DNA of 64,000 nt from an uncultured Salinisphaerales bacterium (GTDB taxonomy: Bacteria; Pseudomonadota; Gammaproteobacteria; Nevskiales; CAJXLF01): the NCBI GenBank assembly GCA_913055805.1, contig CAJXLF010000004.1:62001-126000 (forward strand). Direction: 5' to 3'. The translations under genes and the position numbers were made by a program. The notes under the pieces are model-generated. The model was not told the DNA's origin. It worked only from the letters and a program-made list of their open reading frames with translations, and made no database searches. Below are positions 28,440-42,036 of the stretch, one piece after another; position 1 is the first letter of the stretch, and the number at the start of each line of letters is the position of its first letter.

Positions 28440-29813
28440 TTAGCGCCGTGAACGCTTGCGCAGGGTCTGCGGACTGAAGTAATCGTCTTCCAGTTCGATA
28501 CGGAAGTCGCTGACCTTGTCCTCGTTCTGCATGGCGGTGACGAAATAACGGCCGCTCTGCAGGTCGTAGATGACTTCCGGTATGGCGGTGACAGTCGGAA
28601 TCATGGGATAGGTGCCCAGATGGCCCTCCTGGAACTTCCAGAATTCATCACGGTTGTCGTAGAGATCCACCGCTGCAATCGACCAACTGTCTTCATCAAT
28701 ATAGAAGCGCCGCTTGGCAAAAATATGACTGGTGCCTTCACGCAGATAGGCCTCCACCACCCAGACACGGTGCAACTCGTAGCGGGTCAGATCCTGGTTG
28801 ATAAAGCGCGGGTTTAGAATTTCTTCGAACTTCAGGCGCCGGTCGGCGATACCCCATGAGTTATAGGGGATATATAACTCCTTCTTGCCGATGAGCTTCC
28901 AGGTGTAACGCGACAGCGAGCCATTGAACATATCGATCTGGTCATAGGTCTGCTGATTGTCCGAGCCCTCGGTGGGGTTGTCGTAGCCGGCATCCGGCAG
29001 ACGCCGCACCCGCCGCACGGCAGGGTTGTAGACCCAGGCCTCACGCTGCCCCTCCACCGGGTCATGCGCCAGGATGAACTGACCGACGATGCGGGGCGGC
29101 GACAAATACTCGGAGAGGTACATCAGCAGCAGGGTGTTCTCCTGCGCAGCCGGCTCCTCGATATTGGCGTACTTGAACTTCACATCCTCGATCAGCTTGG
29201 TGAGGGTGTACTTGCCATCCAGCTGCACGATGGCCTGATTGTTGTAGCGCCGCACCGCGGTGCCACGGAATTTCATCTTGTGGTTCCAGATGACTTCCTC
29301 CGCCCGCTTGGGGATCGGAAACGGAAACCCCAGTTTGGCGCCGATGACATCATCGGTGCCTTGCAACTCCGCGCGGGTTGCGTTGCTGATGGTGGCCTGC
29401 TCGATTTGCGGCGGGAAATACCCAGAACGATTGGAGGGATACACCGGCATTTTGTATTCCGGGTACTGGGCAAACATGCGCTTATGCCCTTCGGTAAGCC
29501 GTGCCTCGTACTGGCCCAGGTTGTCCCGGGTGATGGTGAACTGCGGCGACTCCACCCGACCGCCGCCGAAGATTTTCGCCAGCTCATCGGCCGGCATGGC
29601 CTCGATCTGCTCTGGGGTCAGATTGCGCTGTTCATCGGTGAAGTTGGCGGGCCCCGTCCATACCGGAATGCTGCCGTCTTCATTAGCGGCTTTCTCCGCA
29701 CCCACAGGCGTCAAGTCTTTGCCCAGGCGGGCAGCCTCCTCTTGTGGCACCTTGGCCCAGGCCGATCCTGATAGCAGAGTCAGGCCCATCAGCACCGCCG
29801 TTTTATTTCGCAT
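28440..29813 (-). CDS. DUF1329 family exported protein
   Basis: Exported protein of 457 residues with signal peptide MRNKTAVLMGLTLLSGSAWA. ATG 29813 is preferred because the GGTGAG ribosome site then sits at 6 bp; ATG 29816 is adjacent. Features of DUF1329 are visible: LGKDLTPVGAEKAANEDGSIP near the start, GFPFPIPKRAEEVIWNHKMKFRG in part mid-protein, and VWVVEAYLREGTSHIFAKRRFYIDEDSW in part near the end. DUF1329 proteins are periplasmic or outer-membrane-associated with a LolB-like fold prediction and often occur with DUF1302 barrels in degraders of hydrophobic compounds (family knowledge). Here the DUF1302 gene lies about 8 kb away. A role in moving lipophilic substrates is inferred. It is followed by the separately promoted TetR operon. 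Confidence 0.85.
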   Translation of the reverse strand: MRNKTAVLMGLTLLSGSAWAKVPQEEAARLGKDLTPVGAEKAANEDGSIPVWTGPANFTDEQRNLTPEQIEAMPADELAKIFGGGRVESPQFTITRDNLGQYEARLTEGHKRMFAQYPEYKMPVYPSNRSGYFPPQIEQATISNATRAELQGTDDVIGAKLGFPFPIPKRAEEVIWNHKMKFRGTAVRRYNNQAIVQLDGKYTLTKLIEDVKFKYANIEEPAAQENTLLLMYLSEYLSPPRIVGQFILAHDPVEGQREAWVYNPAVRRVRRLPDAGYDNPTEGSDNQQTYDQIDMFNGSLSRYTWKLIGKKELYIPYNSWGIADRRLKFEEILNPRFINQDLTRYELHRVWVVEAYLREGTSHIFAKRRFYIDEDSWSIAAVDLYDNRDEFWKFQEGHLGTYPMIPTVTAIPEVIYDLQSGRYFVTAMQNEDKVSDFRIELEDDYFSPQTLRKRSRR

Positions 29814-30011
29814 CATAATCTCACCAGCATTTTTCTCCTGCGGCTGCACAGCATACAAGCGCGAATTACATAATTTCTACTAACGTTGCATGCGTTTATG
29901 CGCTACCGGCGCCGCGCTCCGGCGCTTAAGCTGTACGATTGCGGTTTCGTCAATACAAACCGGCACTTATCAAATCAGAAGCAAATCAGAACACGTTTAC
30001 AGGGAGCGTAA

Positions 30012-32387
30012 ATGAACAGGATTCTGGCAGGATTCGCCTTCACTTTTATTCTTGGCCTGAGTGCCTGCGGCGGGGATTCCGATAACGACGGCCGCCGCAC
30101 ACCCGGCAAACAATCCGACAACAGTAGCGCACCCATCTACGCGGTGGCCAAACAGTGCATTCACCTCAAGGCACAGAGCGGTCAGTATGTGGCCCTGGGC
30201 AACGGCGGTTACACCGCCAATGCCACCTCTGCCGGAGAAGCGGCATCCTTTTATATGCAACCCACGGCCCTGGCCAGCTATCTGCTGCTGTCCGGCTATA
30301 ACCGTGAAGCCAACCTGTTGCTGGATAACGCCACGGGCGGGGGCGATCCGGGCCAGAAGGAATTACTGGGCATCACCGATCCGGCCGGCGAATTTCTTGA
30401 TCAGGCCGGCAACCTGGTAGGGAATGTGGGCGAAATTGTCAGTAGTGTCGGCGACATCCTCGATCTGGTGCTCGACCCCGTCGCGCCGCTGGGCCAGGCG
30501 GTCAACAATGTCGGCGACAACGTCGGCGTCATTGGAGAAACCCTGGCCAATACCGACCTGGGGCCGGCACTGGGTGTGGTCGACCAGGCCAGTGATCTGG
30601 CCACCTGGCAACTCAGCGAACCCGAGCCGGGTCTGTTCCAGCTGACTTCGCTGGAAACCGGCCTCAAGCTGGCCGAGAACAATGGTCATCTGGGACTGAC
30701 CAGCACCGGCGACAACAACCCCGCCACCCTGTTCAGTATCGAAGAAGCCCGCGATTGCGCCAGCTATCCGGAAGCCGGGCTGAATGCCGAACTGGTGGAT
30801 GAGCGCGGACCGAAGATCTTCTGGAACGACCAGGCTGGCGATGTCTATGGCTGGGTGGACGACCATGCCCACATCACGGCTTATGAATTCATTGGCGGAC
30901 GCGTCAACTACGGCAAGAATTTCCACAAGTTCGGCGTTGAACACGCCCTTGACAACTGCCAGGAGAACCACGGTCCGGAAGGCACCCTGGGTATTCTGGA
31001 AATGGTGACTTCGGACGCCATCGGGCCGCATGAAACCGTCGGCTGGCCGACCTACAACGAATGGCCGCGATCCAGCTCCCTGCAACATCACCAGACCTAC
31101 TACCGCTGGATCGAGCGATCCTTCCTGGCCGGCCAGAAGATCCTGGTCAACCTGATCACGCATAACGAAGTGCTGTGCCAGATCTATCCGCTCAAGCAGA
31201 ACGACTGTGACGGCATGGAGAATGTGCGCCTGCAGGCGAAGCGCACCTATGAATTGCAGGATTACATCGACGCCCAGCATGGCGGACCCGGCCGCGGCTG
31301 GTTCCGGGTAACGGAAACACCTGAGGAAGCCCGCGCCGCCATTGCCAAAGGGCAGATGGCCGTGGTGCTGGGCATTGAGCTGTCCAAGGTACTCAACTGC
31401 GGCGAGTTCCTGGATCAGCCCGAATGTACGCGCGAGCAAATCCAGCAACGCCTGGACGAAGTGGAAAGCCTGGGCGTACGCGTGATCTTCCCGGTGCACA
31501 AGTTCGATAATGCCTTTGGCGGCCATCTGCCCCACTCCGGCTTCGGTCTGGGCACCTTCCTTACCGCCGGCAATCTGCTGGAAACCGGCCACCCGATCGA
31601 GGTGGAGCAGTGCCCGCTGGACGACGCCGGCGACGACAATTTCGTGGAACCGGCCAACAACCCGCGCGAAAACCCGGCCGGCATCTTCGAGTGGCTGCAG
31701 GCCGTGCTTGAATACAACGTGGCCCAGGTCAATCCGACCGGCTCCGACACCACCCATCTGTGCAATATCCGCGGCCTGACCGATCTCGGCTTTTACCTGC
31801 TCGACCAGCTGGTGCAGCGCGGCATGCTGGTGGACGTGGATCACATGAGCCGCCGCGCGGCCGATGCCACCATCGACTATCTGGCCAGCCGCGGCTATCC
31901 CATGATCAGTTCGCATGACTGGCTCGGTTCGGAAACCCTGCTCAACAAACTGGCCGACAGCAATGGCTTCCTCGGCCGCTTCGCCCGCGGCGGACGCGAT
32001 CAGTGGGTGGAACGCCTGACCGGCATGGCGGCCCGTTACGATGACCGGCCCTTCTTTGGCGGCGGTATTGCCTCCGACGTCAACGGCATTGCCCATCTGC
32101 CACACGATCCGCGTGATGGCGCCGCCGACAGCGAAGGCATGATCAGCTACCCCTTCCGCTCCTACGACGGCCGCGTGGAATTCGACAAACAGGTTACCGG
32201 CGATCGCGTATTCGGCCTCTATGACGGCCGCGGTGTAGCCCATTACGGCCTGTATGCGGATTACATTGCCGACACCGAACAATTCGGCGGCCCCGATGCC
32301 AGAAAAGGGCTGGACGTGTTCTTCCGTTCAGCCGAAGCCTGGCTGCGCATGTGGGAGCAGGCGGAATCGGTGGCGGGTAGCAACTGA
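30012..32387 (+). CDS. Lipoprotein related to membrane dipeptidases (M19-like amidohydrolase) with N-terminal beta-trefoil-like region
   Basis: Secreted lipoprotein of 791 residues, start ATG 30012 with GGGAGCG upstream; lipobox LGLSAC at about residues 14-19, followed by a Gly/Asp/Ser-rich linker. The region about 45-250 has beta-trefoil- or fascin-like segments (LKAQSGQYVALGNGGY; FQLTSLETGLKLAENNGHLGL) interrupted by an amphipathic part rich in Val-Gly-Asn repeats (about 125-190). The C-terminal 500 residues resemble metallo-amidohydrolases of the membrane dipeptidase superfamily: VDDHAHI (H-x-H metal pair), VLGIELS, VDVDHMSRRA and MISSHDW. Substrate is unknown; the location outside the cell or at the outer membrane is inferred. 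No close characterised relative is recognised. Confidence 0.7.
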   Translation: MNRILAGFAFTFILGLSACGGDSDNDGRRTPGKQSDNSSAPIYAVAKQCIHLKAQSGQYVALGNGGYTANATSAGEAASFYMQPTALASYLLLSGYNREANLLLDNATGGGDPGQKELLGITDPAGEFLDQAGNLVGNVGEIVSSVGDILDLVLDPVAPLGQAVNNVGDNVGVIGETLANTDLGPALGVVDQASDLATWQLSEPEPGLFQLTSLETGLKLAENNGHLGLTSTGDNNPATLFSIEEARDCASYPEAGLNAELVDERGPKIFWNDQAGDVYGWVDDHAHITAYEFIGGRVNYGKNFHKFGVEHALDNCQENHGPEGTLGILEMVTSDAIGPHETVGWPTYNEWPRSSSLQHHQTYYRWIERSFLAGQKILVNLITHNEVLCQIYPLKQNDCDGMENVRLQAKRTYELQDYIDAQHGGPGRGWFRVTETPEEARAAIAKGQMAVVLGIELSKVLNCGEFLDQPECTREQIQQRLDEVESLGVRVIFPVHKFDNAFGGHLPHSGFGLGTFLTAGNLLETGHPIEVEQCPLDDAGDDNFVEPANNPRENPAGIFEWLQAVLEYNVAQVNPTGSDTTHLCNIRGLTDLGFYLLDQLVQRGMLVDVDHMSRRAADATIDYLASRGYPMISSHDWLGSETLLNKLADSNGFLGRFARGGRDQWVERLTGMAARYDDRPFFGGGIASDVNGIAHLPHDPRDGAADSEGMISYPFRSYDGRVEFDKQVTGDRVFGLYDGRGVAHYGLYADYIADTEQFGGPDARKGLDVFFRSAEAWLRMWEQAESVAGSN

Positions 32388-32455: not shown

Positions 32456-32866
32456 ATGGAATCCGATCACCCCGTCATGCTCTTCGATGGTGAATGCGCC
32501 CTGTGCAACGGCACGGTGAATTTCGTACTGGATCACGACCACAGCGGCTCTATTCATTTCGCCCCGCTGCAATCGGAGGTGGGTCAGGCCTACCTGCGCA
32601 AATTCGGGCTGCCGACGGAGGACTTCCAGTCTTACGTCATCGTGGAAGGCGACGAATTTTCGCTCAAGTCCCGGGCCGTGCAGCGCATGGGCTATCACAT
32701 GGGCGGCATCTGGCGTTTTCTGGCCGCCGTCTCGAAAATCATTCCCCGCCCGCTCAACGACGCCATCTACGACCTGGGCTTTCGCAACCGCATCAAATGG
32801 TTCGGCAAGGCCGACCAGTGCCGCGTCCTCGACCCTCAGACCAGGAAGCGTTTTCTGGCGCTGTAA
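32456..32866 (+). CDS. DUF393 (DCC) family thiol-disulfide oxidoreductase-like protein
   Basis: Small protein of 136 residues with the DCC hallmark FDGECALCNG near residues 10-19 (Asp-Gly-x-Cys-x-x-Cys). The DCC family (DUF393) is predicted to have a thioredoxin-like fold; function is not established. It also shows the family-typical SRAVQRMGYHMGG and DLGFRNRIKWFGKADQCRV. There is no signal peptide, so it is probably cytosolic. It starts 68 bp after the dipeptidase-like lipoprotein gene with GGAGG upstream and is convergent with the MMPL gene. Confidence 0.85.
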   Translation: MESDHPVMLFDGECALCNGTVNFVLDHDHSGSIHFAPLQSEVGQAYLRKFGLPTEDFQSYVIVEGDEFSLKSRAVQRMGYHMGGIWRFLAAVSKIIPRPLNDAIYDLGFRNRIKWFGKADQCRVLDPQTRKRFLAL

Positions 32867-32892: not shown

Positions 32893-35283
32893 TCAGCCCT
32901 CGCAACAGCGAGTAATTCTGCTTTTCAGTGAAGTGATCAACGGCCTGGAGGATTCCAGCTGTATCAGAAGCGCCGGCAGCAGGAGCAAATCGGTCAGTAA
33001 CGCGAAGAGAACGAACAGCGAGCACATATAGCCCACGGTCTGGTTGGCCAGGAACCCTGACTGGGCCGTGGTTATAAATCCGGTGAGCAATACCAGTGAA
33101 GTCATGATCATGGCGCTGCCAACGGAGTCCAGGGCATGCCGTACCGCCTCCCGGGCAGACAGACCAAGCTTCTGCGCATCACGATAGGCACTGAGGAAAT
33201 GGATGGTATCGTCCACGATGATTCCGAACATCATGCCCATGACAACCGACAACGCAAAGTTGATCTCCCCGACCAACAACGCCCAGGCGCCGAAAGCCAT
33301 TATCGGCGGTATGAAGTTCGGTACCAGACTGATGATGCCAAGACGCAGACTGCCCAGCGTCAACACCAGCACCACGGAAATAACGGCCAGGGCAATCAGC
33401 GTGCTGATGCTCATGGACTGAAAATTACGATTGGAAATATCCGAAAACAACAGCGGCGGACTCACGGCCCGGTTGGCCATTTCCGGCGCCTGCTGCCGCA
33501 GCCATGCCTCCGCACGTTCGGCAAACGCCCGCAGACTGTCGGAGTCCATGTTTTCCATGGTCACGGTGACCCGACTGCCGGATTTGTCCAGATTGATCTC
33601 GGCGGTCAGATCACGCCCCACCGGCAGAGACAACTCATACAAAAGGAGATACTGGGCAGCCAGTTCACCACTGGCCGGCAGGCTGTAAAAGGCCGGGTCG
33701 TCCGCATGCATGCTGCGATTGAGCCGCTTCATGGTGGGCACCAGCGTATTCACCTGGATAACGCCCGCCTGTTTACGCAACCAGTTTTCGAAGGCTTCCA
33801 GTTTGGCCAGATACGTGGGCGTGCTGACCGCGCCCGGCGTATCCGTATCGAGGGAAAACTCCACTATGTAGATGCCGGTCAGATGCTCGGCGGTGTAATC
33901 CGTCGCTGCCCGGAACTCAATACTGGGATCGAACCACTCCACCCAGTTATCGTTGATCTTGTTGCGCGGAATCACGGCGGCCAGGACCAGCCCCAGCAAA
34001 ACCACCGACACCAGAATCAGGCGCCCGTGACTGATCACGACATCGCCCAACCAGGTGGTCAGACGATCCAGAGGGCTGCGTACATCCCTGGACGGGTTCA
34101 ACGGCAGCAAACTGGCCAGCGCCGGCAGCAGCGTAATGGACAGTATCCAGGCAAAAATGACCCCGCTGGCCACGATGTTTCCGTATTCCCGCAGTGGCGG
34201 GGAATCACTGGCATTGAGACTGAGCAAGCCCAGGGCGGTGGTAAAACTGGTCAGGAACAGGGGCGTAAACTTGACCTGCAAGGTCTCGGCCAGCGCCCCC
34301 GCCTGCAGGGTGCCATCGCGCATGCGCGACATGGCGCCATTCATCAGATGTACGCCATCGGCCACCGCCAGCGTCATGACCGTAATCGGCGCCATGGCCG
34401 TTACCGCTGTCAGCTCCACCCCGAAATAACCGGCCAGTCCCATGGCGGTGGCAGAAGAACAGCCCACCATGAAGAACAAGGCAGAAGCGCCGGAAAAGGA
34501 ACGCAACAGGAAAAGCTGCATCAGAAAAGTCAGCACAATCATCAGCGGCACATGATTCTTCAGCGTTGTCATGGTCGCCTCGCCGAAAGCGACATCAATC
34601 ATGGTTCCGCCGGTCAGATAGACGGAGATAGCGGGATAGGCCTGCTCGATCTCATCGCGTAATGCACGGGCCGCGGCCACGACCTTTGACGCCGCCTGAT
34701 TATCGCCCGACGGCAGAACCAGGCTGACGCTGATCCCGGTATGGCTGGCATCGGCCGAAATCAGCCGATTGGCCAGCAGAGGTTCGTTCAACGCCACCGC
34801 TTCCGCCGCCTTCAATTCGCTGGTCGACATGCTTGACGGCTCGGGCGCCAGCTCACTCACCTCCAGGGAATCCGCGCTGGCACGGGTATGCGGAAAATTG
34901 GTGACGGAATCCACACGTCCGGCATAGGGCATCTGCCAGGCGCGTTGCGTCAGGGCGCTCACGGCCTCGAGGGCATCACGGCTGAAGACCTGCCCATTTT
35001 CGGGCGCCAGAACGAAGAGCAGATAGTCACCGGGTGCATATTCGTCCTGCAACTCATCCAGCGCCTGAATCTGGGGGTGTTCAGGCCCGATCATGACCCG
35101 CGTGTCGTTGGTAAAGCCCAGACCGCCTGCGCCCATGGCGAGCAGACCGATGCCCAGCAGACAGGAAACGAGCACCCGCTTCGGGTGACTTACGACCCAG
35201 GCGCTGTAGGCCGCGACCAGTTGGCGATAGCGTTGAAGGATTGGGTATGGCATTGCGGTTTTCCCGGACTTTCTGGTTTCCAT
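32893..35283 (-). CDS. MMPL/RND superfamily transporter
   Basis: Integral membrane protein of 796 residues with the duplicated RND layout: one TM (about 35-55), a periplasmic domain, five TMs (about 240-410), then the same again (TM near 430, domain, TMs about 640-780). TM4-like motifs are APITVMTLAVADGVHLMNG and MMFGIIVDDTIHFLSAY. It belongs to the short MMPL/hydrophobe exporter branch rather than tripartite HAE1 pumps, and members move lipids or sterol-like compounds in several bacteria (family knowledge). Its ATG shares bases with the stop of the CocE-like gene (TAATG at 35281-35285), so translation is coupled. It is the last gene of a four-gene operon with DUF1302, SDR and hydrolase. Direction of transport is undetermined. 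Confidence 0.88.
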   Translation of the reverse strand: METRKSGKTAMPYPILQRYRQLVAAYSAWVVSHPKRVLVSCLLGIGLLAMGAGGLGFTNDTRVMIGPEHPQIQALDELQDEYAPGDYLLFVLAPENGQVFSRDALEAVSALTQRAWQMPYAGRVDSVTNFPHTRASADSLEVSELAPEPSSMSTSELKAAEAVALNEPLLANRLISADASHTGISVSLVLPSGDNQAASKVVAAARALRDEIEQAYPAISVYLTGGTMIDVAFGEATMTTLKNHVPLMIVLTFLMQLFLLRSFSGASALFFMVGCSSATAMGLAGYFGVELTAVTAMAPITVMTLAVADGVHLMNGAMSRMRDGTLQAGALAETLQVKFTPLFLTSFTTALGLLSLNASDSPPLREYGNIVASGVIFAWILSITLLPALASLLPLNPSRDVRSPLDRLTTWLGDVVISHGRLILVSVVLLGLVLAAVIPRNKINDNWVEWFDPSIEFRAATDYTAEHLTGIYIVEFSLDTDTPGAVSTPTYLAKLEAFENWLRKQAGVIQVNTLVPTMKRLNRSMHADDPAFYSLPASGELAAQYLLLYELSLPVGRDLTAEINLDKSGSRVTVTMENMDSDSLRAFAERAEAWLRQQAPEMANRAVSPPLLFSDISNRNFQSMSISTLIALAVISVVLVLTLGSLRLGIISLVPNFIPPIMAFGAWALLVGEINFALSVVMGMMFGIIVDDTIHFLSAYRDAQKLGLSAREAVRHALDSVGSAMIMTSLVLLTGFITTAQSGFLANQTVGYMCSLFVLFALLTDLLLLPALLIQLESSRPLITSLKSRITRCCEG

Positions 35284-37103
35284 TATTGCGACATCGGCGC
35301 TATGGCGTCAGCAAGACTGCTGCCCGGCAATACCGGCACGAGCAATCTTGATGGCGTATCCCCGCCCAATGACGCCAGATTGATATTAGGCGCCGGCAAC
35401 ATGTAAAGCGGTGAACCGACCAGGTAGAGTCTGAGCCGATGCCCGGCCTGGAATCGATTCCCCAGCGGCCAGAACTCGACTTTGTACTCACGCATCTCGC
35501 CGGGAATGGCCGGGGTCTTGCTGCTGTGGTCCGGATAGGGCTGCACCACCTCGCCGTTGCCGTCACGCACAGAACGTTCCTCGACAATGTTTGGGTAGCT
35601 CGTCCGCAGCCTGCCGATACCGACGGCATGGCTGCTGCCATCAGGCCAGACATCGGCTATCACGGCATGGATATCGGCTTCGGGCAGAACCGTGGTGACG
35701 AAGATATCCAGACTGGCCGGCCCCACGACATCAACGGCCTCGCTGAAGGGCGCGGTTGTGTAGGTAATCGACAACGGCTCCATCAATGCAAGCTGCGTCA
35801 GAAAGGGTACCGAATCATAGAAAGTAGACAGTACGGTTGCCGTGGTATTCGGGTCGGTCGCTGTTGGCAGCGAAGTCAGTGAAAGCCAGGGCTGCGAAAC
35901 CGACTGTGCCGGCAACTCAAGACCAAGGCTGCCGTCATTGGAAGAATTGGCCGTGCCACTGCGCTCCGGGTTCAGATACAGGGCTTGCCAGGTCGTGCCG
36001 GGTACTGGCCAATCCGCGGCATCCATTTTGGTCAGGTTACCCTTGATGAGTTCCCCGTAGCCGCCATGCCCGACCAGGAGTTGTACCGGGGGTTCTTCGT
36101 CGATGCCATTTGACTTGCCCAGCAGGAAACGGTCGTACCATCGCTTGAATTCCGGCGTGGCGCCCGTGGTACCTTCCGGAAATCCATCGTGCCCGCCAAA
36201 CAGGCGCAGATGCACCGGCACTCCCTGGTCACGCAGCATCTTGTAGCTCTCGAACGGGCCGCGTGACTCAACATCGTAAAAACCGGTGATGGCCAACACC
36301 GGAAAACTGTCCTGGTTCGGACGCTGCGCACGTTCCTGCCAGAATTCGTCTTCGGTGGTATGCAACAAGACTTCAAGAATAGTCCCCATGAACCCGAGCC
36401 CGGAAAGTATGGGATCTACGGGCGGTTGTGCGGCCAGAAACAGATCCAGAAACCCGCCGGCAATGATGGGTGCGCCCACACCCAGGGAAACGGCGGCGCC
36501 CGGCGCCAGGTTGAACATGCCACCGGGATAGAGCAGATCGCGGTACAGGTCGTTGGTCCCCGCCAGCAATCCGGCCGCTTCCACACAGGGCATGGGCAGA
36601 TGCATGGCGTTATACACGGCTATAGCGCTGGCGGAAAAACCGTAAAGCCCGAAGTGGCCATCACTCCAGGGCTGTTCACAGGCCCAGGTCAGAAACTCCG
36701 AAATATCCTGCTGGTCACGGGGGCCAATGGCGGACCATGTGCCATTGCTCTGCCCTGTGCCGCGCACGTTGACATAGACATGGTTATATTCAGGGCCGAA
36801 ATCCGGAAGATCCCGGCCAATATCGCCATAGGGGCTGAACTGGATGATCGCAGGCCGGGGCTTTATTTCCTCACTACCCTGCACAGTGAAATGCAATGCC
36901 ACGCCATCACTGGTGAGAAACTCGTGTGTCTCCTCAACGGGCTGCTGTGTTTCTCCGTTATCGCTGTCCTCACCCTGCGGCGGGCTGGCAGCGGCATTGT
37001 CTTGCCCGGCAATAACGGGATCATTCGAGGCGTCTCCATTACAGCCGGCAGTCCACAGGACAAGCCCGGCTATCAGCAGTTGAAGTATCGACCGCAACAT
37101 CAT
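35283..37103 (-). CDS. CocE/NonD family hydrolase, lipoprotein
   Basis: X-Pro dipeptidyl-peptidase/cocaine esterase-like hydrolase of 606 residues. A lipoprotein signal (LLIAGLVLWTAGC, Cys about residue 21) is followed by a linker rich in Asp, Ser, Pro and Gln. The alpha/beta core shows IIQFSPYGDIG, the nucleophile Ser in YGFSASAIAVYN, the acid Asp in TGFYDVESRG and the His in FGGHDGFPEG; a C-terminal jelly-roll domain (about 400-600) completes the CocE fold. ATG 37103 overlaps the stop of the upstream SDR as ATGA. These enzymes split esters, amides or lactones; with a barrel and an MMPL transporter in the same operon, extracellular release of a hydrophobic alcohol or acid from an ester is a plausible role (inference). 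Confidence 0.87.
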   Translation of the reverse strand: MMLRSILQLLIAGLVLWTAGCNGDASNDPVIAGQDNAAASPPQGEDSDNGETQQPVEETHEFLTSDGVALHFTVQGSEEIKPRPAIIQFSPYGDIGRDLPDFGPEYNHVYVNVRGTGQSNGTWSAIGPRDQQDISEFLTWACEQPWSDGHFGLYGFSASAIAVYNAMHLPMPCVEAAGLLAGTNDLYRDLLYPGGMFNLAPGAAVSLGVGAPIIAGGFLDLFLAAQPPVDPILSGLGFMGTILEVLLHTTEDEFWQERAQRPNQDSFPVLAITGFYDVESRGPFESYKMLRDQGVPVHLRLFGGHDGFPEGTTGATPEFKRWYDRFLLGKSNGIDEEPPVQLLVGHGGYGELIKGNLTKMDAADWPVPGTTWQALYLNPERSGTANSSNDGSLGLELPAQSVSQPWLSLTSLPTATDPNTTATVLSTFYDSVPFLTQLALMEPLSITYTTAPFSEAVDVVGPASLDIFVTTVLPEADIHAVIADVWPDGSSHAVGIGRLRTSYPNIVEERSVRDGNGEVVQPYPDHSSKTPAIPGEMREYKVEFWPLGNRFQAGHRLRLYLVGSPLYMLPAPNINLASLGGDTPSRLLVPVLPGSSLADAIAPMSQ

Positions 37104-37972
37104 CCGGCCTCTTTTCCGTAATGCAGTGATCTGGCGACAGCAGCGTGCATGCCCCGGTTCAGCAGGCGCATCACCCACTCATAGGGCCAGGCGCATTTAC
37201 GCTGAAACCAGTATCCAAGGCGGATATCGAAGGATGTGAAGATCATGTACTTACCCGCCTTCACACCGCGAATGATGGCGCTCGCGGCCTGTTCGGGACT
37301 GACGGCACGCTTGCGGAAATGCGCCCGGAGTTTCGTGAACACCGGGCCCTGGCTGTCGACACCCGAGATATTCAGGGTATTCACCAGACCGGTATCCACG
37401 CCACCGGGACACACCAGGCTCACCTTGATGCCATGCCGCCGCAGGTCGAAACGCAGCACCTCGGAAACGCCCCGCAGGCCAAACTTGCTGGCGCTGTAGG
37501 CTGCATGCCAGGGCAATCCGAACAAGCCGGCGGCCGAGGAAACGTTAACCAGGTGCCCACCTTTCCCGGCCTGAATCATGGCGGGAACGAAGTTTTCTAT
37601 AACGTGAATCGGGCCCATGAGATTGACGTCGACGGTTTTGCGCCAATCGCCGTGCGTCAGGGTCTCGACACTGCCCCAGATAGCGATGCCGGCAACATTC
37701 ATGATGACGTCGAGACTGCCATGCTGGTCATGAATATTCTCCGCAAAACCCTTCACCGCCTCGTAGTCCGATATGTCGAAGGCTCTGAAAGCAGCAACGC
37801 TCCCGCCTGCCTTGCGAATATCGGCCACCACCTTGTCCAGCGCTGATGTATTGATATCCGTCAGAAACAACTGCGCGCCTTCGGCCGCGGCCTGCCGTGC
37901 AATCGCCTCCCCGATACCACTCGCAGCACCGGTAACGAGACATTTTCTGTCTCTGAAAAAAGTTTTAGGCAT
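37100..37972 (-). CDS. SDR family NAD(P)-dependent oxidoreductase (classical)
   Basis: Classical SDR of 290 residues. The cofactor motif VTGAASGIGEA is near residue 13, N-V-A-G replaces NNAG (MNVAGIAIWG), the catalytic Ser is in NVSSAAG and the Tyr-x3-Lys in AAYSASKFGLRG. The C-terminal extension (about 240-290) is rich in aromatic and basic residues (YWFQRKCAWPYEWVMRLL) and may bind membranes, as in several SDRs acting on lipophilic alcohols. The start ATG 37972 lies 14 bp after the DUF1302 stop; the stop overlaps the hydrolase start. Its substrate may be the alcohol produced by the hydrolase encoded next (inference). Confidence 0.87.
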   Translation of the reverse strand: MPKTFFRDRKCLVTGAASGIGEAIARQAAAEGAQLFLTDINTSALDKVVADIRKAGGSVAAFRAFDISDYEAVKGFAENIHDQHGSLDVIMNVAGIAIWGSVETLTHGDWRKTVDVNLMGPIHVIENFVPAMIQAGKGGHLVNVSSAAGLFGLPWHAAYSASKFGLRGVSEVLRFDLRRHGIKVSLVCPGGVDTGLVNTLNISGVDSQGPVFTKLRAHFRKRAVSPEQAASAIIRGVKAGKYMIFTSFDIRLGYWFQRKCAWPYEWVMRLLNRGMHAAVARSLHYGKEAG

Positions 37973-37986
37973 CTAAATCCCCTGTC

Positions 37987-40170
37987 TCAGAACGAATAAG
38001 CGATGTGCGCTGTCAGGTGATCCCTGTCACGCATTGTGTCGTTATCCCCGGTTGATCCCCGGTAGAAAAGTCCACCCGACCAGTTTTCCCGGAACGTGAA
38101 TTCAGAACCCACCTGGAAGAATTTGCGCCCCTCGGCAAAACCCTGGTATCCCGATTTGGGCAGAGGAGAAATTCCCTTCACATCGTGACCAAAAATCAGC
38201 CAGGGCCGGAAATTGATTCCCCAGAACAGATCGTTGTATTCCATCAGCACATTCACCCGGTAGCCCCAGGCAAAGTCGTCGGCAAAGCCCTCGGTTTGCT
38301 GAGTCGGATTCAGGCGCAGGTCTGGTACACCGCCCGCCCCGGTGCCATCTGCGCCGGGGCTGGCATGGGTGTTCTTATGCAGGATATAGCCTTCGAACTG
38401 CAGTTCGTCCTGATCCGGCATATCCTCCACATGAGTAAAACCGGTTTCCAGAAACAGAATCACCTGCTCAGCGCCCAAGGGAAAGGGAATATCTGAAGGT
38501 GAAAATACCTTGATACCCGTGATATCAAGTTGTCCCACATTCAATCGTTCGAAACCCCGCACGATTTGGCCCTCCTGGATCGAACGCTCCGGAATACTGT
38601 TGTCGTAACCACGATAAACACTCAGAAAATCCGGTATAAAACGGCGGGCAGCGGGCAGGGTCGCCAACTGAGGTACGCCCACAACAATATCCTCACGCGG
38701 GAACAGCGGTTGTGAGCCCGCCATAACCACATCTGTGAGACTCACCTGGAGAGGCATGTTCGGGCGATAGGCGTATTCCCCGGATAGAGACCAGCCACCG
38801 TAGGTGGTATTGAAGCTAACACCATAGAGCTGAATATCTTCAGGATAATCCAGGAATATTTTCGGCGTATCGAACGGCAGGGCATCTTGACCGCCTGATA
38901 ATTCCAGGTCCACGGGCGGCAAGATTTCGCCCACATCCTCACCCAGATAGTGGAAGATGATGTTACGGAGATCGAGGGAGCCGCTGATGAGTAAAGGGCA
39001 ATCGGCTATGGCTTCCACCAAATTACCGGATTCCCGTGCACAGGAATCCTCGCCTGCAACCATACCCAGGTAGGGAATCCGGCTGTGGTAGTTCATCGCA
39101 AAGAAAGCGAGCTCCGTACCGCCAAGCAACGCATCCGTATACCAGCTCACTTTCAGCCCGAATTGCCCGCTATCACTTGCGTCTCCGAAGCCATCGAGAA
39201 CCTGGGCCGTCGCTGAACTGTCTGTTACAACACCCCCCAGGCCAGACAATCTATGCTCCCTGTTGGGATCTTCCGGCGTCTGTGACTGGGTGAGAAGCAC
39301 CCAGTCCTTGCCATTGGCAGCTTCAAACAAGGACATGAACCCCCCGGTCGCGGCTGCACGCGCCGGCTTCCATTTGAGCTGATAGAAAAACTCGGCGCTG
39401 ATGTCCTGCGTTAAATCCGCAGAGAAAACGACCAGAGGAATCGGTTGATAGGCTTCGGTGAAATCGGCGCCAGGTATCCAGACACGATTTTCATCAGGCG
39501 GGTTGATTTCGTTAATGCTATTGAGGGCAATGAAATTGCTTTCCCCCCATCGCAAATACTGACTACCCAGCGAGAAATTGACCGTACGGTCCCAGAGCTC
39601 GAAATGGGTGCTTACGAATGCTTCAAGCAGATCAACGTCGGCGCCGATGTCCCTGTCCACAGACTTTGGGCGCCGGGTTTTTGCCGGTTGGTGAATCGTG
39701 TTGGTATGGCGGTCAAAAGCGTTTTTGTTGACGGGGTCATAAAATCCGACACCGCTAAACTTTAACCGGAAGTCCTTCCAGATGGCTGTCAGATCGGTAT
39801 TCAGCTTTAGCGCAGCAGCGGTCACATCATATTGATCATAATTGAGATTGCCGTCGTCAAACGCCCAGCCGAGAAAAGCACCCTCGGCATCCACCAACCG
39901 CTGGTTGGGCTCCGGATCACCACCCAGGTCCAGGCAGTCATCCTGGGCACAGAGGTTTTGTTGTCCCGGTACGTTAAGTTTGCCGATAAGGGCGTTTTCA
40001 CGTTCTTCCATACGCCAGGTGGCCCCCAGACTCACACGGCCGCCGACCTCGATATCTATATCGTTCCAGCTATATTCAAAGGCCCACAATGACGGCGCAA
40101 GGCAGCTCATGACAGCGGCCAGCACACATGGCATGAAGCCCGGTAACGCTTTTCGGAATAAAGATTTCAT
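37987..40170 (-). CDS. DUF1302 family outer-membrane barrel protein
   Basis: Outer-membrane protein of 727 residues. The signal peptide ends near PSLWA/FEYSW and the protein ends in an aromatic residue (HIAYSF), as barrels do. The N-terminus IDIEVGGRVSLGATWRMEER and mid-part FSLGSQYLRWGESNFI are typical of DUF1302, a family linked to degradation of alkanes, steroids and polyesters (family knowledge). Several Cys pairs are in predicted extracellular loops. ATG 40170 is chosen for its GAGAGG ribosome site. It is the first gene of the operon with SDR, CocE-like hydrolase and MMPL transporter, and divergent from an AraC regulator that may control it. The likely role is passage or binding of a hydrophobic compound at the cell surface. 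Confidence 0.87.
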   Translation of the reverse strand: MKSLFRKALPGFMPCVLAAVMSCLAPSLWAFEYSWNDIDIEVGGRVSLGATWRMEERENALIGKLNVPGQQNLCAQDDCLDLGGDPEPNQRLVDAEGAFLGWAFDDGNLNYDQYDVTAAALKLNTDLTAIWKDFRLKFSGVGFYDPVNKNAFDRHTNTIHQPAKTRRPKSVDRDIGADVDLLEAFVSTHFELWDRTVNFSLGSQYLRWGESNFIALNSINEINPPDENRVWIPGADFTEAYQPIPLVVFSADLTQDISAEFFYQLKWKPARAAATGGFMSLFEAANGKDWVLLTQSQTPEDPNREHRLSGLGGVVTDSSATAQVLDGFGDASDSGQFGLKVSWYTDALLGGTELAFFAMNYHSRIPYLGMVAGEDSCARESGNLVEAIADCPLLISGSLDLRNIIFHYLGEDVGEILPPVDLELSGGQDALPFDTPKIFLDYPEDIQLYGVSFNTTYGGWSLSGEYAYRPNMPLQVSLTDVVMAGSQPLFPREDIVVGVPQLATLPAARRFIPDFLSVYRGYDNSIPERSIQEGQIVRGFERLNVGQLDITGIKVFSPSDIPFPLGAEQVILFLETGFTHVEDMPDQDELQFEGYILHKNTHASPGADGTGAGGVPDLRLNPTQQTEGFADDFAWGYRVNVLMEYNDLFWGINFRPWLIFGHDVKGISPLPKSGYQGFAEGRKFFQVGSEFTFRENWSGGLFYRGSTGDNDTMRDRDHLTAHIAYSF

Positions 40171-40387
40171 GACCCCTCTCAGCACACACAACTAACGACG
40201 GAAGATGGCCGCGGGCAGGATACCGGCTGGCCCCGTTCTCTAATCTGATGCGACATGCTAGAAAAAGGCTTTAAAGCAGAGCAGTCCCCAAAACGGACAA
40301 GCGAAGTCTCTATTTGAGCCACCCCTTACATACTGACTTTATTTATTTCAGAATCTACGCAGTTATTTTTCTCAGCCAGACAGGGAT

Positions 40388-41437
40388 ATGCCGAGATCAG
40401 ACATCGTAAGATGGGTTTCCACGCGCCACCTGCAGCATTTTCTTTCTCAGGGGCAGCGTGCCGGGCTTGGCGTGGAAGACTGGCTGAAAGAAGCCGGCGT
40501 CAATCCCGAGGTCCTGCGCGATGCGGAATCCGCCGTGCCGCTGTCGGCGCTGGAATCCCTGCTGACCATCCTCTCCAAGCATCAGCCCCTGCCGTTGATC
40601 GGCCTGCATCTGGCCAACGACATCCAACCGGCAACACTCGGCCCACTGGGACTGATTGCCCAGGCCTGTTCCACGCTCGGTGACGTTTTTGATATGGCCG
40701 TTCAGTTCAACGGCCTGTTGAGCAATATCGGCGAGTTCTCCATTGAGCATCATCCCGGCACCGTTGAATTGCGCTGGAAATGCCTGGCAGGTAGCGAAGC
40801 GTTTCAGCGACAAGCGCACGAATACGTCATTGGCGCCCTGGTGGTACTGGCCAGATTTCTTCTGCCCGAGGAAAAGGAACTGCCCCTGTTTGTAAATTTT
40901 CCACACCCCAGACCCGAGGACAGCGCACACAACCGCGGCTATTTCACCTTCTTCCGTTGCCCGGTCTACTTTGACAAGGAAGCGGCTTCCGCCACCATTC
41001 CCGCCCGCCTGATGGATGTCCGCATGCCGCACGGCGATGCCTATATCAAGAACCTCATAGAACAGCATGCCGAAACAACCCTGCGTGAACGCGCGCTGGA
41101 ATATTCACTCAGTCATGAGGTACGCCACCTGATCAAGGGCATGATCATCGACGGCGTTCCCACCAAGGAAATGGTTGCCATACAACTCGGCATGAGTGGC
41201 CGCACCTTGCAAAGAAAACTTGACGAACACGGCACCAGTTACCGGGAACTGTTGCACCTGGTACGTCTCGACCTAACGCACGAATATCTCAACGATCCGA
41301 AAACGTCTGTTGATAACATCGCGGGCCGCATGGGTTTTGCCTCGCGGCAGGCTTTCCTGCGCTGGTTCAAACAAAGTACCGGCTATACCCCCACGCAATA
41401 CCGGAAGGAAAAGGCATGCCAGCAAACGCAGAACTGA
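40388..41437 (+). CDS. AraC family transcriptional regulator
   Basis: Regulator of 349 residues of the OruR-like group: the N-terminal arabinose-binding-like domain (about 20-210; PLPLIGLHLANDIQPATLGPLG) is followed by a C-terminal AraC helix-turn-helix pair (about 240-345; VAIQLGMSGRTLQRKLDEHG and NIAGRMGFASRQAFLRWFKQ, each a partial quotation). It is divergent from the DUF1302 operon across 217 bp and overlaps the following AhpD-like gene by 22 bp. It probably activates one or both in response to a small hydrophobic ligand. Start ATG 40388 has only a weak ribosome site. Confidence 0.88.
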   Translation: MPRSDIVRWVSTRHLQHFLSQGQRAGLGVEDWLKEAGVNPEVLRDAESAVPLSALESLLTILSKHQPLPLIGLHLANDIQPATLGPLGLIAQACSTLGDVFDMAVQFNGLLSNIGEFSIEHHPGTVELRWKCLAGSEAFQRQAHEYVIGALVVLARFLLPEEKELPLFVNFPHPRPEDSAHNRGYFTFFRCPVYFDKEAASATIPARLMDVRMPHGDAYIKNLIEQHAETTLRERALEYSLSHEVRHLIKGMIIDGVPTKEMVAIQLGMSGRTLQRKLDEHGTSYRELLHLVRLDLTHEYLNDPKTSVDNIAGRMGFASRQAFLRWFKQSTGYTPTQYRKEKACQQTQN

Positions 41438-42036
41438 CCCCGCCTCAGGGCTGGATCCTGACGGACGGGGTACGCATCCCGCCGCCACCACCCGCCGAAC
41501 GCGGACTCGGGTTCCGCATGATTGGCGGGCTTGCCCGCTTCATGGGACGTGACCAGGTACCGGACATCTTCACCGTCCTGCAGATTCACGGGCGGCTGTT
41601 CTGGGCCTGGTTGTTCTTCGCCTCCCGCCTGATGCCCTACGGCAAGCTGTCTGCACGCACACGCGAACTGATCATCCTGCGTACCGGCTGGAACTGCCGC
41701 TGCCGCTACGAATGGGGCCAGCACGTAGAAGTCGGATTGCGAAGCGGTGTCACTGACGAGGATATTCTCAACGTTTCCTGTGGGCCCGAGGCTTTCGCCG
41801 ACGCCCCGGACAGAGCAGCCATGTTTGCCTGCGATGAGCTGTGCACACAGCAGCATCTCAGCGACGCCACCTGGGAATTATTGAAGGAAAACTACAGTAC
41901 CAAGCTGGCCATCGAAATCATGATCCTCACCGGCCACTACGTGATGCTGGCCGGTTTCCTGAACAGCACCGGTATTCGGCTGGAAGCTTCGATCGAAGGT
42001 GAGCTCGCCGCCTTCAATCAGCGCGTTGCTCACTGA
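41416..42036 (+). CDS. Carboxymuconolactone decarboxylase/AhpD-like protein
   Basis: Protein of 206 residues of the CMD/AhpD-like superfamily. The core motif is LSARTRELIILRTGWNCRCRYEWGQH in part, near residues 75-100, with a Cys-x-Cys pair in place of the redox Cys-x-x-Cys and a His in EWGQH. It overlaps the AraC gene by 22 bp, which implies coupled translation. It ends in a 7-bp overlap with the convergent TetR gene. Many such proteins sit beside catabolic genes without known function; peroxidase-like or decarboxylase activity is possible. Confidence 0.8.
   Translation: MPANAELTPPQGWILTDGVRIPPPPPAERGLGFRMIGGLARFMGRDQVPDIFTVLQIHGRLFWAWLFFASRLMPYGKLSARTRELIILRTGWNCRCRYEWGQHVEVGLRSGVTDEDILNVSCGPEAFADAPDRAAMFACDELCTQQHLSDATWELLKENYSTKLAIEIMILTGHYVMLAGFLNSTGIRLEASIEGELAAFNQRVAH

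Follow-up and report, generated by a model that had tools for sequence, protein, structure and literature searches.

The operon of a DUF1302 gene, an SDR gene, a CocE/NonD-type hydrolase gene, and an MMPL transporter gene found in our window (the whole stretch of 64,000 nucleotides analysed here, from an uncultured Salinisphaerales bacterium) is one lineage's version of a real, conserved, and wider module that has its own promoter. The conserved unit is an SDR together with a CMD (AhpD/carboxymuconolactone-decarboxylase-like) protein, and its usual companions are a DUF1302 protein, a CocE lipoprotein, and a divergently encoded AraC regulator.

Organization of the operon

The four genes follow one another very closely on the minus strand (Table 1). 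A 14 bp gap (37986-37973) separates the DUF1302 and SDR genes, the SDR stop and the CocE start share an ATGA overlap at 37103, and the CocE and MMPL genes meet in a TAATG overlap at 35283. A previous reading of this DNA, made from its letters alone (hereafter the sequence-only reading), had described these four genes and three junctions; we could confirm all of them, and family scans confirmed the four kinds of protein. Its span (35283-40170) covers the DUF1302, SDR, and CocE genes but leaves out the MMPL gene announced in its title, and the divergent AraC-CMD pair (40388-42036), which is part of the module, was missing from its gene set. Because the next downstream gene is convergent, the minus-strand run ends at the MMPL gene. 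Scans for promoter and terminator consensus sequences gave matches at chance level only. We considered the DUF1329 gene as a fifth part of the operon and rejected it, as two plus-strand genes intervene.

Table 1. Features of the operon and its surroundings (window positions)
Feature	Position	Strand	Remarks
DUF1302 gene	40170 (ATG)-37987	-	First in operon; PF06980, E 1e-136, full length
SDR gene, NAD-type	37972-37100	-	PRK07832 equivalog (NCBIfam)
CocE/NonD-type serine hydrolase gene, predicted lipoprotein	37103 (ATG)-35283	-	PF02129 and PF08530, TIGR00976
MMPL/HAE3-like RND transporter gene	35283 (ATG)-32893	-	PF03176
DUF393-like gene (own reading)	32456-32866	+	Convergent, next downstream of MMPL
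Large predicted lipoprotein gene	30012-32387	+	Partial M19 dipeptidase match; just downstream of operon
DUF1329 gene	28440-29858	-	Free-standing; just downstream of operon
AraC-family regulator gene	40388-41437	+	Divergent; PF12625 N-terminal domain (profile match)
CMD gene	41416-42036	+	PF02627; core partner of SDR
Predicted AraC operator	40282-40321	-	Direct repeat, period 22 bp (motif discovery); proximal half 40299-40282, distal half 40321-40304 (weaker)
-10-like element TTTCTAGCAT	40255-40264	-	35 bp downstream of proximal repeat start

Conservation and reshuffling of the module

SDR orthologues (at least 59% identity) occur at 16 loci in 14 of the 85 genomes of the order, the 15 other loci being 59-70% identical to ours, and a CMD gene shares the cluster with the SDR at every one of the 16 (14 genomes). 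CocE orthologues (46-66% identity, the remaining paralogues lying at ~30%) were found at nine further loci, spread over eight further genomes, one of which carries two; counting our own genome, nine of the 85 possess this CocE subfamily. In a sample of 398 genomes of the phylum, our own genome alone gave a match to the subfamily. A tblastn search against plasmids retrieved, among the matches listed, only remote CocE relatives (~25-27%), and a CocE search of genome contigs only distant Streptomyces pieces.

The SDR adjoins CocE at eight of the nine other CocE loci, and CMD is present at the same eight. Six of these eight, in other genera and families, carry the ATGA overlap; CocE precedes the SDR in the two that do not. 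Since this overlap recurs in other genera and families, the SDR-CocE core is no chance arrangement. The divergent AraC-CMD pair and DUF1302 likewise come back at loci of further genera and families. The other companions are less constant at the nine loci (DUF1302 at 7/9, AraC at 6/9, DUF1329 at 2/9), and the place of DUF1302 varies: before the SDR (window, L045), after it (L047), behind CocE (L046), or beyond CMD (L042-L044, L049). The complete DUF1302-SDR-CocE-MMPL set was found in no other genome examined, and we looked for one flanking pathway gene recurring across loci and found none. The sequence-only reading had seen in the four genes a self-contained route for a hydrophobic ester, with a protein in each compartment. 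Gene neighbourhoods support its SDR-CocE core and not its four-gene order. An operon for a hydrophobic, hydrolysable substrate stands, together with its barrel, lipoprotein hydrolase, and oxidoreductase parts, but not its self-contained character, given that the other loci have no MMPL within the stretches read and that the order is reshuffled.

The SDR-CMD core can do without CocE, since six SDR loci in other genomes lack the hydrolase, as does a sister module in our own genome. The latter contains the second SDR copy of this genome (L119, 3560-12319; G000 C8:73559-82318), in the order esterase (PF00756)-GH3-SDR-DUF1302-DUF1329-CMD with a divergent TetR gene. Because this module of the same genome has an esterase and a GH3 glycosidase where the window has CocE, the hydrolase looks interchangeable. 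Three of the four CMD genes of our genome adjoin DUF1302 genes (binomial P ~0.001). The redox pair CxxC of AhpD is absent from the CMD alignment, which has CRC or CRS at that place.

Several other clusters were recorded in passing. A RoxA-like cytochrome gene lies ~4 kb downstream of the sister module. Elsewhere in our genome (L103:1138-11272, G000 C8), an S15-type hydrolase gene sits beside a DUF1302 gene and is followed by a divergent DUF1302-DUF1329-3HCDH-CMD run. In another genome (L139:8501-15479, G038), an SDR//CMD pair precedes genes for an FAD-binding oxidoreductase, a further SDR, a ferredoxin-type reductase, and a CoA ligase of the FadD3 family that scores above its cut-off. Over its 3.4 Mb, the whole genome of our organism (G000) has 23 matches to DUF1302 and 28 of the DUF1329/LolA-like kind, many for its size.

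A predicted AraC operator in the divergent gap

The DUF1302 and AraC genes are separated by 217 bp, and AraC orthologues adjoin the module in eight other genomes. An unsupervised motif search in the AraC gaps of five loci from five genera yielded the operator motif with a score of 83.3, against 66.4 +/- 1.6 for shuffled sequences. One run returned a half-site, TGGCCgaTTTcGaGcCTG, and a separate run a downstream CTA[CG]CAT element. The spacing between them is 35 bp (34 in L046), staying at 34-35 bp across seven AraC loci. A second half-site 22 bp upstream is weak in some loci, the window among them. The gap thus contains a conserved direct-repeat operator, a predicted site of the kind expected of an AraC-regulated promoter. 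The gene behind the promoter varies: it is DUF1302 in the window and the SDR or DUF1329 at other loci.

Searched across the 85 genomes, the composite pattern had perfect matches at six AraC loci only, all at the module and all used in defining the pattern or close kin of loci that were, and a single further match, with two mismatches. The perfect matches are therefore built in by construction, unlike the absence of further sites. Two held-out AraC loci also carry the operator: none of 300 shuffles reached the score of L138, and one of 300 that of L140. The operator is absent from seven of the eight loci devoid of AraC, and the eighth, L142, beats its shuffles via the -10 part alone.

Predicted properties of the proteins

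The CocE hydrolase scores well above the cut-off of its family (TIGR00976, 163.9 versus 66.3 bits), and in profile comparisons it comes closest, among solved structures, to CocE/NonD hydrolases and cocaine esterase. It is a predicted lipoprotein with a signal segment and a lipobox cysteine, Cys21, which is invariant in 10 orthologues, as are Ser157, Asp277, and His305. These three residues form the probable catalytic triad, Ser and Asp being aligned to cocaine esterase and His assigned by motif, where the profile alignment is not clean. Enzymes of the CocE/S15 family also include amidases and peptidases. The SDR exceeds the equivalog cut-off of PRK07832 (454 versus 296 bits) and conserves a TD[IV][ND] motif after beta-2 and a YSASK-type motif. 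An acidic residue after beta-2 favours NAD(H) in the SDR superfamily. The conserved aromatic C-terminal part of the enzyme may touch the membrane. The DUF1302 protein has an N-terminal signal-like segment ending in LWA and no relative in the PDB, and by analogy with its family it would be an outer-membrane beta-barrel (PMC10866462, PMC6394551). Single-sequence AlphaFold models had pLDDT values too low for a fold search (38 for CocE and 28 for DUF1302).

The MMPL transporter, a probable lineage-specific recruit

An MMPL gene belongs to the module operon in our own genome only, the sole representative of its family among the genomes examined. No MMPL gene occurs at the nine other CocE loci within the 16-20 kb read, seven of the eight other CocE genomes have no match genome-wide at E<1e-60, and the stretches read around the six CocE-less SDR loci contain none either. 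The nearest kin of the window MMPL (~43%) mostly adjoin a LolA-like gene, in many cases accompanied by a TetR gene and a gene of barrel size; here the neighbours are CocE and the convergent gene, and no LolA_like gene stands beside it. Phylogenetic analysis placed the window MMPL within this LolA-partnered group, separated (100/100) from the AmeD-like copy of its own genome (L102), in a tree where AmeD itself is not included, L102 has a long branch, and the placement inside the group is tentative. Given its position among LolA-partnered MMPLs, away from the AmeD-like copy, the MMPL was probably recruited into the operon in our organism's own lineage. It falls below the cut-off of TIGR00921 (124.5 versus 351.9 bits) and weakly matches HpnN models and structures. 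The L102 copy itself lies in an AmeABCD-like YCF48-MMPL-DUF1302 run (L102:4988-10728, G000 C5) without an adjacent DUF1329 gene.

Hints about the substrate

The substrate is perhaps a polycyclic, steroid- or terpenoid-like compound, a weak hint given by the presence of KstD-like genes (E < 1e-100) in all 14 module genomes. They occur in 32 of the 71 others (Fisher P 6e-5), an association that is weaker when family f6 is left out (P = 0.002) and when counted by genus (P = 0.04), genome relatedness being only partly controlled. In two genomes (G038 and G058), the distance from the module to KstD-like and HsaA-like genes is ~15-16 kb. All the KstD-like and HsaA-like proteins score below their curated cut-offs (KstD-like at most 617 bits versus 788, HsaA-like 360-378 versus 450); in our own genome they are not near the module but on another contig. 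DUF1302 operons have been tied to monoterpenes, as in AmeABCD (PMC6394551), and to aromatic regulons (PMC6449761). Growth of Pseudomonas putida on Tween 20 needs the DUF1302/DUF1329 genes PP_0765/PP_0766 (PMC10866462). According to a survey from 2016, no steroid uptake system had been identified outside the mycolic-acid bacteria (PMC4810484). The ester bond of the sequence-only reading is itself an inference, and the hydrolytic enzymes of the sister module are an esterase and a GH3 glycosidase.

Proposed function and alternatives

We propose, at slightly below even odds, an AraC-controlled catabolic module in which a hydrophobic alcohol is freed from a conjugate and then oxidized. An inducer would activate the divergent AraC, which would bind the 22 bp direct repeat and turn on the barrel-SDR-hydrolase operon; the operator is conserved, and from it we infer the binding, the activation, and the inducer. 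The DUF1302 barrel, judging from its family, would pass the lipophile across the outer membrane. The envelope-anchored CocE lipoprotein would cleave the conjugate, here an ester or an amide; its cysteine and Ser/Asp/His residues are invariant, and its substrate and membrane side are presumptive. The NAD-type SDR would then oxidize the freed alcohol, and CMD would act on that alcohol or on what it is turned into, reactions conjectured for two proteins whose genes share a cluster at all 16 loci. Added in our organism's lineage, the MMPL of the LolA-partnered class might move substrate or product between the inner membrane and the periplasm, a step at which other lineages have a DUF1329 protein or nothing.

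MMPL-type RND transporters usually export, and the operon might accordingly serve efflux or detoxification, the barrel and the MMPL expelling a toxic hydrophobe that CocE and the SDR inactivate. In agreement with this reading, AmeABCD was described as a monoterpene efflux system with an HAE3 RND pump (PMC6394551), and the products of DUF1302/COG1033 operons have been discussed as solvent-stress proteins (PMC6449761). Export by the MMPL cannot, however, be the common function of a module that lacks it at other loci, and the parts kept across loci (SDR, CMD, and CocE) are enzymatic, so we regard efflux as improbable. A better chance, albeit still a minor one, goes to the MMPL being a recent passenger brought in by rearrangement, with a function unrelated to CocE and the SDR, which would leave the rest of the catabolic reading compatible. 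No MMPL match occurs at the other loci and the normal LolA-like partner of its clade is missing here; against this stand the translational coupling of the MMPL and CocE genes through TAATG and the existence of related DUF1302-MMPL operons, one of them in the same genome (L102).

Two further alternatives concern the chemistry. Glutaryl-amidase and X-Pro peptidase activities are known in the S15/CocE family, and CocE could be an amidase or peptidase whose substrate is an amide conjugate, for example an N-acyl amino acid, from which it would release a lipophilic acyl group. The Pfam domain names (Peptidase_S15 and PepX_C) fit this option, and a neighbouring alcohol dehydrogenase does not prove an ester. 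We nevertheless find it quite unlikely: by profile, the solved structures closest to it are those of CocE/NonD hydrolases and cocaine esterase, and the partners of the SDR in the sister module, an esterase and a GH3 glycosidase, are enzymes that release alcohols. Least probable of all, in our opinion, is a role in the biosynthesis or remodelling of envelope lipids, with an HpnN-like MMPL exporting a lipid modified by CocE and the SDR. Hopanoids are transported by HAE3/MMPL proteins like HpnN, which the window MMPL matches weakly, but the patchy occurrence of the module (SDR in 14/85 genomes), the inducible-type AraC promoter, and the DUF1302 protein point to catabolism, and no lipid-synthesis genes were recognized nearby.

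Extending the catabolic reading, we consider it a long shot that Gram-negative bacteria handle conjugated steroid-like alcohols by a modular route of this kind, with a fixed SDR-CMD core, swappable envelope hydrolases, CMD as a new post-oxidation step, and MMPL or DUF1329 proteins bridging the periplasm. If true, an SDR-CMD core usually accompanied by DUF1302 would be served by either CocE or an esterase with a GH3 glycosidase. DUF1302 proteins are abundant in some bacteria, and the module ties one of them to a hydrolase, a dehydrogenase, a CMD protein, and a dedicated promoter, whose regulator's inducer, once found, would point to the substrate. More generally, the case shows that a seemingly self-contained operon may turn out, once other genomes are compared, to be the local form of a larger module whose gene order is reshuffled.

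Comparison with known systems

AmeABCD of Castellaniella defragrans (DUF1302-DUF1329-YCF48-HAE3 RND), interpreted as an efflux system (PMC6394551), likewise unites DUF1302 and an MMPL/HAE3-type RND in one operon tied to hydrophobic compounds. The window operon differs in lacking DUF1329 (AmeB) and YCF48 (AmeC), the module adds the CocE hydrolase, SDR, CMD, and AraC, and the MMPL falls outside the branch of the genome's own AmeD-like copy (L102). We accordingly rejected its identification as AmeABCD, on the absence of DUF1329 and YCF48 and the different MMPL group. The MMPL belongs instead with the MMPL-LolA_like operons (L104-L111), often accompanied by TetR and barrel genes, in place of which, and of the LolA partner, the window has CocE, SDR, and DUF1302. 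In Betaproteobacteria, the COG4447-COG1033-PF07044-DUF1302 operons of the AphR/AphS/AphT regulons also bring DUF1302 and a COG1033 transporter into catabolic regulons, and one of them lies near an esterase/lipase operon. They differ in having other regulator types and, in the available part of their description, neither a fixed coupled hydrolase-SDR pair nor a CMD (PMC6449761). PP_0765/PP_0766 of P. putida resemble our case in that a DUF1302 protein is required for the use of a fatty ester, but the transport genes are scattered (PP_2018/2019) and no CocE-SDR-CMD cluster is reported (PMC10866462). The BstABC sterol transport system of Methylococcus capsulatus shares an MMPL-family inner-membrane protein that handles sterol; its periplasmic and outer-membrane parts are different and it serves a sterol-making organism (PMC10942540). 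Compared with neighbourhoods of the steroid 9,10-seco pathway, the window module has no KstD and HsaA above curated cut-offs nearby. In some of its parts the module is like AmeABCD and the DUF1302 operons found in aromatic regulons, and it is a variant of the DUF1302 modules for hydrophobic compounds.
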